A stretch of 40,155 bases of DNA from Acidimicrobiia bacterium (GTDB lineage: Bacteria; Actinomycetota; Acidimicrobiia; IMCC26256; PALSA-555): the NCBI GenBank assembly GCA_035948415.1, contig DASZJD010000126.1, positions 1 to 40,155 on the forward strand, given 5' to 3'. Below, one piece after another: positions 18,247 to 21,451 of the stretch (position 1 is the stretch's first letter; the number at the start of each line of letters is the position of its first letter). The notes beneath the pieces were generated by a model, which did no database searches, was not told the origin of the DNA, and saw only the letters and a list, made by a program, of their open reading frames with translations. Both the position numbers and the translations under genes were made by a program.

Positions 18247-18543
18247 GTGCCGTTCATCCAGACCATTGAGTTCCAGACCACTCAAATCGATGAGTTCGAT
18301 GCCGCGATCCAAGCCTGGCTGGCCAAGTCCGCGGCCTGGCGGTCCACGAACCGATCGGTCCGAACCAAGGACCGCGATCGGCCCGACACCTACGTCCAGA
18401 TCGTCGAGTTCCCGTCCTACGAGGCCGCGATGGAGAACTCCAGCCATCCCGAGACCGCCGAGCTGGCCGAGCAGCTGGCGAAGCTCTGCGACGCGCCCCC
18501 AGCGTTCCGCAACCTCGACGTCATCCGGGAGGAGCTCACCTAG
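18247..18543 (+). CDS. small ferredoxin-like-fold (ABM-like) hypothetical protein
   Basis: The protein has 98 residues from GTG 18247 behind AGGAGG (spacing ~6). Its layout is strand-helix-strand-strand-helix: PFIQTIEFQTTQIDEFDAA, then DTYVQIVEFPSYEAAMENSS, then a helix and a final short strand. This resembles dimeric alpha/beta-barrel proteins (antibiotic biosynthesis monooxygenase / EthD class), especially 'Y.qIvEFpSyeaAM.NS'. Such proteins bind small hydrophobic molecules. The catalytic role is unknown. It lies 113 bp after the exporter and could be transcribed with it. Confidence 0.65.
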   Translation: MPFIQTIEFQTTQIDEFDAAIQAWLAKSAAWRSTNRSVRTKDRDRPDTYVQIVEFPSYEAAMENSSHPETAELAEQLAKLCDAPPAFRNLDVIREELT

Positions 18544-18712: not shown

Positions 18713-19891
18713 TTACCGAAGCTGTGGGCAGTGGTTACTGGCCGCCTGGGCCAGGTCGTCCGTGGGCGTGAACTGGAGCGTTGTCCGGTCGACGTTCCAG
18801 GTGAAGACCTGGGTGTCGCCATCGGTCGTGTGATCCGTCACCTGCAGGACGAACGTGTTCGAATCAGGCCCCGGGGGAGTCGCGAAGTCCTGCGACGCCG
18901 CCTGCTTGATCGGCGGCGGGAACGGCGCACACTGAGACGCCGCGTTCTGCAGCTTGCTGATCGCGCGCTGCTCCGCGGTCGGGCCGGCGGCGCTGCTGGG
19001 CGGCGGGGCCGGCGCCTGGGTCTGTGGAGTCGTTGCCGGCGTGGTGTTGGGGGTGGTCGCTCCGACCGGCGTGTCGTCCCCGGGTTGGCTGCCGTCGGTG
19101 CCCCGCCTGCGGTTGAACGGCTTCCCGCTGCTCGGGTCCACCAGCGTGAACGTGTCGATGATGATCGTGGTCTTCTGGATGATCGTGATCGAGGTGCCGG
19201 TGAAACCTGACCACCTCGGTCCGTAGTACGTCGGGGTGTAGCCAGGGGTGTAGTAGGTCGGCGGCGTGAGCGGGTTCCCGCAGTAGCACTTCGTCACGGG
19301 CTCACCCTTGTCGTCGACGAGGACAGCGGTGCCGGCCTCCAGGACCGAGCGAATGGTGGTGGCCCGACCGTTGGCGTAGCCGTGGTTGGTGACCAGTGTG
19401 TCGCTGCGCAGGAGCACCGGGGTCAGCCCGTTGACATAGGACGGGATGTCGGTGGTCGTGATGCCAAGCACGGAAGCCCACGCCGCGGCCTTGCTGGGGT
19501 TCTGCTCCAGGTACAGGACCAGCTGGTTGCGGTCGCAGGTCCTGGTGTCGAGGGTGCCTCCGTAGAGGCCGACGTGGGACCCGTCGACGGTGGTCGCGCC
19601 GGCAGGCTGAACCGGCGGAACGCGCTGGTCGGCGCCGACCGGAGGTGCAAACGGGTCACTGGCTGAGTTGAGCGGCTCGGCGCGAAGCGAGGCACCGGCG
19701 CTGCTTCCACCCGACAGCCCCACGACCAATCCGACCGTCCCGCCGATGACCAGCAGCAACACAACGAGACCGATGAGCAGGTTGCGGTACAGGTTCGAGG
19801 GCCGGCGCGGTGGCCCGGCCGTTGGCGCGCCGTAAGCCATCGTCGGCGGACCGGTCGGCGGCCCCGTCGGCGGACCTGTCACGTTCCCCAC
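18713..19891 (-). CDS. DUF6777-type membrane-anchored protein
   Basis: The protein has 392 residues from GTG 19891. The N-terminus contains GPPTGPPTGPPT repeats, then one membrane helix (LLIGLVVLLLVIGGTVGLVV, ~39-60), placing the rest outside the cell. Residues ~100-215 hold the recognisable domain: GLYGGTLDTRTCDRNQLVLY, then KAAAWASVLGITTTDIPSYV, then LTPVLLRSDTLVTNHGY and VTKCYCGNPLTPP. This matches DUF6777, an actinobacterial extracellular domain often fused to Ser/Thr kinases; here no kinase is present. A Thr/Pro-rich linker (~265-300) and a Cys-bearing C-terminal module follow. Four conserved-looking cysteines (TCDRN, CYCGN, QCAPF) suggest disulfides. Its role is unknown. It is divergent from the SH3-repeat gene. 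Confidence 0.8.
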   Translation of the reverse strand: MGNVTGPPTGPPTGPPTMAYGAPTAGPPRRPSNLYRNLLIGLVVLLLVIGGTVGLVVGLSGGSSAGASLRAEPLNSASDPFAPPVGADQRVPPVQPAGATTVDGSHVGLYGGTLDTRTCDRNQLVLYLEQNPSKAAAWASVLGITTTDIPSYVNGLTPVLLRSDTLVTNHGYANGRATTIRSVLEAGTAVLVDDKGEPVTKCYCGNPLTPPTYYTPGYTPTYYGPRWSGFTGTSITIIQKTTIIIDTFTLVDPSSGKPFNRRRGTDGSQPGDDTPVGATTPNTTPATTPQTQAPAPPPSSAAGPTAEQRAISKLQNAASQCAPFPPPIKQAASQDFATPPGPDSNTFVLQVTDHTTDGDTQVFTWNVDRTTLQFTPTDDLAQAASNHCPQLR

Positions 19892-20076
19892 CCCCTAGCC
19901 ATCGCCGAAGGAGGTTCGGCTGGCTGCAACCCGACGACGAACCTACCGGGCTGGGGCCCGGAGGAGCAAGCGAGCCGCCACCCTCCCGCGCCTCGGCCGG
20001 AGCGCGCGGCGACATTTCGCGCCGTTTGGCCGCCCAGTTTCGTTTGGTCGGCCCGCATGCGCGTGGGATCGCTGTC

Positions 20077-20082
20077 TAGAGT
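20077..20082 (+). promoter_or_regulatory. candidate -10 (TAGAGT) for the SH3-repeat gene
   Basis: TAGAGT lies 89 nt before ATG 20172 in the 280-bp divergent region. No convincing -35 is visible, so this is only a weak candidate. Confidence 0.25.
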
Positions 20083-20171
20083 CCGCAGGACGCCGAGGGG
20101 TCCGCCGTGGCGCGCGCGTGCCGCGGCAGTCGAGCCAACCCCCGTACCGCGGGGGGAACTGAGGATCGCTG

Positions 20172-20837
20172 ATGGGCGAAGCGTTCGTCCCGACCCACGC
20201 GGTCCCCGACGACGGCCTGCCGGCGTGGTCCACGCCGGTCGCGACCGCCGCGCCGGTCGCGACCCTCGAGCCTCACCTGCGCGTCCGAGCCCTCCAACGA
20301 CGAGACGACGGGTGGGCTCGTTTTCTGTGCTCGAACGGCTGGTCGGCGTGGACGGACGGGCGCCGCCTTCGCGATCTGCGGTCGCTGTGGCTCGTCCCCG
20401 TCGGCGGGTTGCCGGCCTGGAACGATCCGAACCCGGCGCTCCCGTCCCGCGCGGCGCTGAACCCGGGACTCGAGGTGCAGCTCCTCGCGCTACGGGATGA
20501 CGGTTGGGCCGCCGTCCTCTGTTCGAACGGCTGGTCGGCTTGGGTCGATGGTCGCCGCCTGACTCCCGTCCTGGGTGCTGACGCGCCCACGGCGGACCTC
20601 GCCGGAGGCTGGGATCAAGAACTCCGGGAGGCGTGGTCGCGGCATCGTGCCCTCGTACAAGACCTGCAGGCTGGTCGCATCGACAACGACGCCTTCTCGC
20701 GGCGCGGGGTCCAGGCGGGCACGGTCATCCGGGGGGCCGAAGTCCTGCTGCTGGACTCGGTCACCGCGGGCTGGTGGCGCTACGACGGGATGCGCTTGGC
20801 CCCGAGGTCCGGCGGCGCCGCATCGGACCCGGGATGA
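20172..20837 (+). CDS. protein with tandem 64-residue SH3-like repeat
   Basis: The protein has 221 residues from ATG 20172 (GAGGATC upstream). Residues ~9-66 and ~73-130 are two copies of one domain: 'GLPAW..P....A.L.P...V..L.RRDDGWA..LCSNGWSAW.DGRRL'. The copies are exactly 64 residues apart and share CSNGWSAW and DGRRL word for word. The strand-rich pattern with a conserved Trp pair resembles bacterial SH3-like (SH3b) domains. A third part (~146-215) contains a helix (ALVQDLQAGRIDNDAFSRRG) and a short TAGWWRYDGMRL ending. No signal peptide or membrane segment is visible, so it is probably cytoplasmic. It is divergent from the DUF6777 gene; this pairing may indicate a shared system. I do not recognise a named family. 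Confidence 0.7.
   Translation: MGEAFVPTHAVPDDGLPAWSTPVATAAPVATLEPHLRVRALQRRDDGWARFLCSNGWSAWTDGRRLRDLRSLWLVPVGGLPAWNDPNPALPSRAALNPGLEVQLLALRDDGWAAVLCSNGWSAWVDGRRLTPVLGADAPTADLAGGWDQELREAWSRHRALVQDLQAGRIDNDAFSRRGVQAGTVIRGAEVLLLDSVTAGWWRYDGMRLAPRSGGAASDPG
20331..20539 (+). repeat. intragenic duplication, 192-bp period
   Basis: The bases TCGAACGGCTGGTCGGC occur at 20331-20347 and again at 20523-20539, exactly 192 bp apart and in frame. They mark the two SH3-like copies and suggest a fairly recent duplication or strong constraint. Confidence 0.75.
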
Positions 20838-21043
20838 CCTGACTGCGACGGCTCCCGGCCCGCACCCCGAGTGGTCGCCGAGGCGCCCGCCGCGGCGATG
20901 CGGTGCGGCGAGCGCTCGCTCCCGGCCGCTGGGCACCAGGCGCGCCCGGCTCCGGTCGATCGGCGCTCGCGGGTCAAGCCCCACGCCCTGCGCCAGACCC
21001 AAGTGGCAACATGCAGCGATCGTGGCCCGACGAGGAGGGTGCT

Positions 21044-21451
21044 GTGCCGATCACTCCGAATCGCGATCAGTTCGCGGCGCTGGCGTCGGCAGCCGAGGCC
21101 GACGACGCCCCGGTCACCATGCTGAACCTGCTGAAGTTCAAGGAGGTTGCGACCGACGGCGGGAGCGGCGTCGCGTCCTACAACCGGTACGGCGACTCGG
21201 TCGTCCGGATGGTCGAGGAACGCGGCGGCCGAGTGCTCTGGAGCGGCCGGGTCGATCAGGTCCTGATCGGCGACGAGGCCGCCCACGGCTGGGACGCGAT
21301 CGCGCTGGTTCAATATCCGTCACGGAAGGCCTTCCTGGACATGGTCTCCGACGAGCGCTACCTGAAGTCGCACGAGCACCGTGAAGGCGGGCTGGCCGAG
21401 ACCGTGCTCCTCGCCTGCGCGGCACGGCCACCCGGGGGGCCTCCGGACTAA
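21044..21451 (+). CDS. DUF1330-family protein
   Basis: The protein has 135 residues. GTG 21044 is chosen because GAGGAGG (21032-21038) lies 5 nt before it; ATG 21011 has no such site. The core has PVTMLNLLKFKEVA near the start and IALVQYPSRKAFLDMVSDER later, with SHEHREGGL; these are the typical blocks of DUF1330, a dimeric alpha/beta-barrel family of unknown function. The stop codon TAA overlaps the start ATG of the sulfatase (TAATG), so the two are almost certainly translated together, pointing to a role in the same catabolic or esterase step. Confidence 0.85.
   Translation: MPITPNRDQFAALASAAEADDAPVTMLNLLKFKEVATDGGSGVASYNRYGDSVVRMVEERGGRVLWSGRVDQVLIGDEAAHGWDAIALVQYPSRKAFLDMVSDERYLKSHEHREGGLAETVLLACAARPPGGPPD

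Follow-up and report, generated by a model that had tools for sequence, protein, structure and literature searches.

A DUF6777 membrane protein and a divergent SH3-repeat protein in an Acidimicrobiia genome: a reduced version of a wider actinobacterial gene module

The gene pair and its surroundings

The window (the whole stretch of DNA analysed, 40,155 nucleotides of contig DASZJD010000126.1 in assembly GCA_035948415.1, from an Acidimicrobiia bacterium) encodes a DUF6777 membrane protein (P0001) and an SH3-repeat protein (P0002), arranged head-to-head. Both genes are present in the open reading frame listing where an earlier reading of the letters alone (the sequence-only reading) had placed them, and the spacing of 280 bp that it gave is borne out by the two start codons, a GTG at 19891 and an ATG at 20172. 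The features are as follows.

18713..19891, minus strand: P0001, DUF6777 membrane protein, 392 aa (open reading frame; PF20568, E 5.4e-54)
18716..18991, minus strand: C-terminal extension of P0001, 92 residues (phmmer)
19100..19591, minus strand: DUF6777 domain, with cysteines C119 and C202 (family alignment)
19715..19789, minus strand: predicted single transmembrane helix, residues 35-59 (structure model and hydropathy)
19799..19879, minus strand: proline-rich N-terminal cytosolic tail (GPPTGPPTGPPT...AGPPRRP), proposed SH3 ligand (sequence, proline fraction)
19892..20171, no strand: intergenic region, 280 bp, separating the divergent starts (open reading frame coordinates)
20172..20837, plus strand: P0002, SH3-repeat protein, 221 aa (open reading frame, homologues)
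20184..20372, plus strand: SH3 unit 1 (profile search; model block pLDDT 88-98 over residues 1-70; Z 9.5)
20382..20564, plus strand: SH3 unit 2 (profile search; model confidence lower, 36-72 per block)
20616..20822, plus strand: C-terminal domain of P0002, two helices and four short strands, WWRYDG motif (phmmer, model)

Read by eye, the GTG at 19882 may be the true start of P0001. A search for sigma-70-type promoters and terminators in 19842-20250 returned no match. Small DUF1330-type genes lie on both sides of the pair (18247-18543, E 0.0032, below the cut-off; 21011-21451, E 1.1e-5), and the MMPL gene adjoining the pair has counterparts of 40% identity in G001, a genome of the window's genus, and 38% identity in G003.

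The DUF6777 protein

P0001 is a member of the Pfam family DUF6777 (PF20568), which it matches with 182.8 bits against a cut-off of 27 (E 5.4e-54). This match, the one predicted helix and the placement of the domain after that helix uphold the earlier description of a membrane-anchored DUF6777 protein. The structure model of P0001 is poor (mean pLDDT 53.8) and the helix at residues 35-59 is of low confidence in it (blocks of 55-65), with hydropathy as a second basis for this assignment. The family DUF6779 (PF20570) was considered as well, and nothing in the genome matched it. C119 and C202 are invariant in 64/64 aligned DUF6777 proteins of the class. The C-terminal extension is common to the DUF6777 proteins of G003 (L081; phmmer E 8.4e-30), G024 (L080; 6.8e-31) and G029 (L064; 9e-21).

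The sequence-only reading had taken a kinase to be the usual state of a DUF6777 protein, which proved wrong: a fused Pkinase domain was identified in only 11 of the 64 class proteins scanned, along with TIR in 2/64 and Hsp70 in 1/64. The TIR_2 domains stand at the N-terminus of DUF6777 proteins encoded on minus strands at L116:9087-11312 (E 1.3e-19) and L122:9097-11421 (E 1.6e-19). In the open-licence literature searched, no paper mentions DUF6777.

The repeats of P0002 are bacterial-type SH3 domains by predicted fold

Compared with itself at an offset of exactly 64 residues, P0002 is identical at 34/64 positions, and none of 20,000 shuffles scored as high (maximum 15). Thus, the precise 64-residue tandem repeat of the earlier reading stands. 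In a structure prediction built on a 39-sequence alignment, unit 1 forms a five-stranded SH3 barrel (strands 16-19, 30-32, 37-43, 48-53 and 58-62); the SH3-like barrel that had been suggested for checking is therefore predicted with confidence for unit 1 and with less certainty for unit 2. The top row for unit 1 in the VIA list, which covers mainly P0002 residues 2-75, is an SH3b endolysin (Z 9.5, rmsd 2.5, 68 aligned). The leaders of that list (Z 8.6-9.5) are SH3b-type domains of a phage endolysin and of NlpC/P60-type proteins (two from Trichomonas), and eukaryotic SH3 domains, such as that of JIP1 (Z 7.6), follow just behind. Foldseek on its own gave one match at E <= 0.001.

Among 29 aligned units of the SH3 family, P18, W44, W56 and L62 are invariant. 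Scanned singly in Pfam at E <= 1, 25/29 of these units match SH3_4 and 24/29 match SH3_3. P0002 and its unit 1 gave no SH3 match in Pfam, and relatives at L113 (48.9 bits) and L135 (24.2 bits) score above the SH3_4 cut-off of 24.1. The weak names returned for P0002 itself, DUF2793 (E 0.0026), RAMA (E 0.83) and TIGR04211 SH3_and_anchor (E 0.0014), are all below their cut-offs and were rejected. Because the VIA leaders are of SH3b type and unit 1 is predicted to be a barrel, we conclude that the repeat belongs, on the modelled fold, to the bacterial SH3 superfamily as one of its branches. The family that the sequence-only reading could not name can be named from the fold prediction and the unit scans as a bacterial-type SH3 domain.

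Known SH3b domains bind the cell wall, outside the cell. Those of endolysins, NlpC/P60 enzymes and internalin B share the predicted barrel of P0002 (Z 7.5-9.5). Unlike these wall-binding domains, the SH3 units of the P0002 family are cytosolic by topology, because they are placed ahead of membrane helices in related proteins (before one helix in L089 and before several in L064 and L113). No signal peptide or membrane helix of P0002 is visible by eye or in the model, so the protein is probably cytoplasmic and does not look like an exported protein of the wall-binding kind.

In some relatives (L064:3430-4176, L135:6985-7773) the SH3 unit follows an N-terminal domain that has no name in Pfam, and a similar-looking domain stands ahead of the unit at L139:8880-10040, L140:9107-10279, L142:8887-10077 and L278. 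In such proteins membrane helices sometimes follow the SH3 unit. A label of 'YbjN-like' for the domain ahead of some SH3 units has no Pfam match behind it.

The C-terminal domain and the paralogues in this genome

Residues 149-217 of P0002 form a C-terminal domain separate from the repeats. In phmmer this domain matches that of the Streptomyces operon protein described below (E 1.7e-5); searched alone, the C-terminal domains gave nothing over a Pfam cut-off. An anti-phage role was weighed with PADLOC, in which P0002 residues 129-205 (20556-20786) gave one weak hit, to a model of a 2TM effector (20.2 bits, E 7.2e-5). On the Streptomyces module proteins PADLOC returned kinase and ATPase matches.

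The genome encodes six SH3-family genes, five of them on other contigs and none of those five with DUF6777. Two genes away from a paralogue with SH3 and C-terminal domain, L131 (G000:C94:1-17000) encodes two FHA proteins, a kinase and a PP2C phosphatase (PF13672, E 7.5e-13). A similar protein of ~265 residues follows both paralogues that combine SH3 and C-terminal domain (L131:5719-6522, L132:9108-9899). It is a candidate second partner of such proteins; its L131 copy has no Pfam match over the cut-off. In Saccharopolyspora oryzae (L144:5910-8810), the genes for an SH3-membrane protein and for an RDD-family protein stand head-to-head, and the N-terminal part of the RDD-family protein looks by eye like the C-terminal domain of P0002.

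Proline-rich tails ahead of the membrane helix

With the membrane helix set by a hydropathy rule, 37/64 class DUF6777 proteins have at least 24 residues ahead of it. The median proline fraction of these 37 tails and linkers is 0.25; for 72 single-helix controls taken at the same loci it is 0.06 (p 3e-12). The 38-residue tail of P0001 has a fraction of 0.26. Near SH3 genes the value is 0.33 (n=9, five of them kinase linkers) versus 0.18 elsewhere (n=48; p 0.015). The seven tails read in family f19 are proline-poor (0-0.14), and in that family SH3 genes do not lie next to DUF6777. Streptomyces DUF6777 tails have a median of 0.28 (n=54), some being glycine-rich with little proline. Proline-rich tails may be common among actinobacterial membrane proteins. 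Because the DUF6777 tails are proline-rich relative to the controls, we propose that the SH3 protein acts as an adaptor that reads the tail of the sensor.

The SH3 protein could instead partner DUF6777 without binding its tail, with the units dimerising or binding the kinase, the exporter or something else. D58 in A1 is nearly invariant at the position where eukaryotic SH3 domains have their ligand-binding proline, which favours a partnership of this sort, as do the several glycine-rich tails in Streptomyces. Against it stand the proline-rich tails and linkers near SH3 genes and a comparison of the SH3-unit profile with solved structures: the best match, not significant, is the Abl2 SH3 domain (E 0.067), in which the W of GEWSEV aligns with the invariant W of the unit. 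We regard a partnership without tail binding as unlikely, though far from negligible, and retain the adaptor reading.

The full module in Streptomyces and relatives

A wider gene set was found around SH3 genes elsewhere. Named genomes yielded 454 relatives, and the best 80 loci, 74 of them titled Streptomyces, were analysed with a simple codon-usage gene caller; 78 of the 80 have a called SH3 gene. Among these best 80 of 454, an FHA-ABC exporter lies directly upstream of the SH3 gene on the same strand in 73/78 (an ABC gene without detected FHA in 3, another gene in 2), and the gene after the SH3 gene is a Ser/Thr kinase in 65/78 (another gene in 8, the end of the stretch in 5). DUF6777 is within the fetched stretch in 53/78 of the same loci, at a median gap of 2568 bp, and is absent from 25/78, 14 of which had at least 7 kb of room. 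Pfam resolves the exporter at L165 into two FHA domains, an ABC ATPase and an ABC2 membrane domain. Kinase and DUF6777 are usually separated by an opposite-strand protein, whose L165 copy has no Pfam match.

In one genus of the window's class (5 genomes; L085, L087, L089, L093 and L094), a kinase-DUF6777 fusion, an FHA-ABC gene and an SH3-membrane anchor stand in a row, followed by genes for a secreted-looking protein and then a small membrane protein. No published description of this module was found in the open-licence literature searched (titles, abstract starts). Of the 'undescribed pair' put forward by the sequence-only reading, the partnership with DUF6777 stands, given the adjacency and the Streptomyces loci; 'pair' is too narrow, as exporter and kinase join elsewhere.

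Compared with the full module, the window retains the protein with SH3 and C-terminal domains, with DUF6777 280 bp away. Lacking is a kinase beside the pair (the five kinase matches in the genome are all on other contigs). The exporter search gave 65 matches in this genome; not one of them spans the FHA part together with the ABC part, and the window's contig has none. The window therefore holds a reduced version of the wider module.

Such a reduced set might be a relict, the remains of a decayed operon that lost its exporter and kinase and has ceased to work as a unit. The missing full-length FHA-ABC match and neighbouring kinase would fit this, as would G001, of the same genus, where neither DUF6777 nor the SH3 family was identified. 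However, the reading frames of P0001 and P0002 are open and their conserved residues are retained, the genome holds the five further SH3-family genes, and three other class genomes in which the two genes are close and the exporter is locally absent (G005, G029 and G057) likewise keep DUF6777 and SH3 while showing no full-length FHA-ABC match. In G017 a full-length match is present, beside a kinase-DUF6777 gene (L071). We consider decay improbable and favour a working sensor and adaptor.

Co-occurrence and adjacency of the two families

In the class sample of 395 genomes, DUF6777 is present in 56, the SH3 family in 28 (matches with E up to 2e-10; 36 genomes at E <= 1e-3) and both in 20 (hypergeometric 5e-13). 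The genes are <=3.5 kb apart in 9 of these 20, where 0.096 would be expected under random, uniform gene placement with kinship ignored, 5 of the 9 being of one genus; the remaining 11/20 have them on separate contigs. With the window's genome left out, 8/19 are adjacent, in four genera (0.084 expected).

Because 9/29 rows of the SH3 profile were drawn from DUF6777 loci, the test was repeated with P0002 alone as query. A match was found in 11/100 relatives; besides the window's genome, 6 of these have DUF6777, which is adjacent in 3 (G005, G029 and G057; 0.042 expected). The phylum sample of 396 genomes, which overlaps the class sample, has DUF6777 in 22, SH3 in 13 and both in 10 (7e-12). Here 8/10 genomes with both have them <=4.3 kb apart, 6 of the 8 being one genus and another, G550, ambiguous (a contig end cuts its DUF6777 piece, and the SH3 unit is at the end of a long frame). 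The count of how often the repeat occurs beside DUF6777, suggested with the sequence-only reading, thus gives co-occurrence and adjacency above chance in both samples. That reading had named two outcomes that would speak against it, absence of co-occurrence in other genomes and a match of the repeat to a known, unrelated family; the two families occur together in 20/395 class genomes, and the repeat does belong to a known family, bacterial SH3.

The association is strong but one-sided: among genomes with DUF6777, 36/56 in the class and 12/22 in the phylum sample gave no match to the SH3 family at this level. Among them are G003 and G024, both draft genomes, whose DUF6777 proteins are among the closest to P0001 and share its C-terminal extension. 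The head-to-head order recurs in G005 (L113), of another genus of the family, and two DUF6777 and two SH3 genes are grouped in G029. Gene starts and labels at the loci were derived by script; the DUF6777 label is absent at L283 despite a match there, and the gene is unlabelled in six class loci with a DUF6777 match.

That the two are chance neighbours with no joint function, one of the six SH3-family genes (the other five being on other contigs, none with DUF6777) having landed here by luck, is very improbable and was rejected, since adjacency is far above random placement in the class and phylum samples and the Streptomyces loci hold the SH3 gene in an operon (kinship ignored).

A proposed envelope-signalling module

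Our main reading, to which we give a probability of about 0.5, is that P0001 and P0002 are the sensor and the adaptor of a conserved actinobacterial envelope-signalling module. The full module would consist of an ABC exporter with two FHA domains, an adaptor with SH3 and C-terminal domains, a Ser/Thr kinase and a single-pass DUF6777 protein. On the outer side of the membrane, the DUF6777 domain would read the state of the envelope; such sensing is plausible. The SH3 domains of the adaptor would grip the cytosolic proline-rich DUF6777 tail, and its C-terminal domain would connect to the kinase and the exporter, whose FHA domains could read phosphothreonine. From the joining of DUF6777 to cytosolic signalling parts and from the proline-rich tails, we infer the binding of SH3 to the tail and the passing of the signal to phosphorylation and export. 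Since this genome has no full-length FHA-ABC match and no kinase adjacent to the pair, the partner to which the SH3 protein couples DUF6777 would here have to be an unlinked kinase or another target.

In domain set, the Streptomyces operon resembles pknF-Rv1747 of M. tuberculosis, for which the available part of the source describes a two-gene operon of a Ser/Thr kinase and an ABC exporter with two FHA domains, the kinase positively modulating the exporter (PMC3908365). According to the portion available of a second report, loss of Rv1747 lowers phosphatidylinositol mannosides (PMC5549992). The accessible text on pknF-Rv1747 mentions no SH3 adaptor or DUF6777 protein (PMC3908365), whereas the window has neither kinase nor exporter. 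A protein of Synechocystis, as presented in the part of the source available, combines a Ser/Thr kinase, a membrane segment and SH3b (PMC1262709). As in the module, a bacterial SH3 domain is tied there to Ser/Thr kinase signalling; it is fused to the kinase across the membrane segment, whereas the SH3 units of P0002 are in a separate protein.

Significance

A more general reading is tentative, and we would at present bet against it: that from Acidimicrobiia to Streptomyces a bacterial cytosolic SH3 adaptor recognises proline-rich tails on single-pass sensors of the envelope, connecting them with Ser/Thr kinases and phospho-gated exporters, and is a counterpart of eukaryotic SH3 adaptors, whether through descent of the fold or through convergence. 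For DUF6777, the findings provide a first functional context, tying the family to FHA-ABC, kinase, SH3 and TIR partners and linking it to a gene cluster of streptomycetes and the window's class. Binding of the proline-rich tails by the SH3 units, if it occurs, would amount to SH3-proline signalling inside bacterial cells, coupled to Ser/Thr kinases and FHA-gated export.
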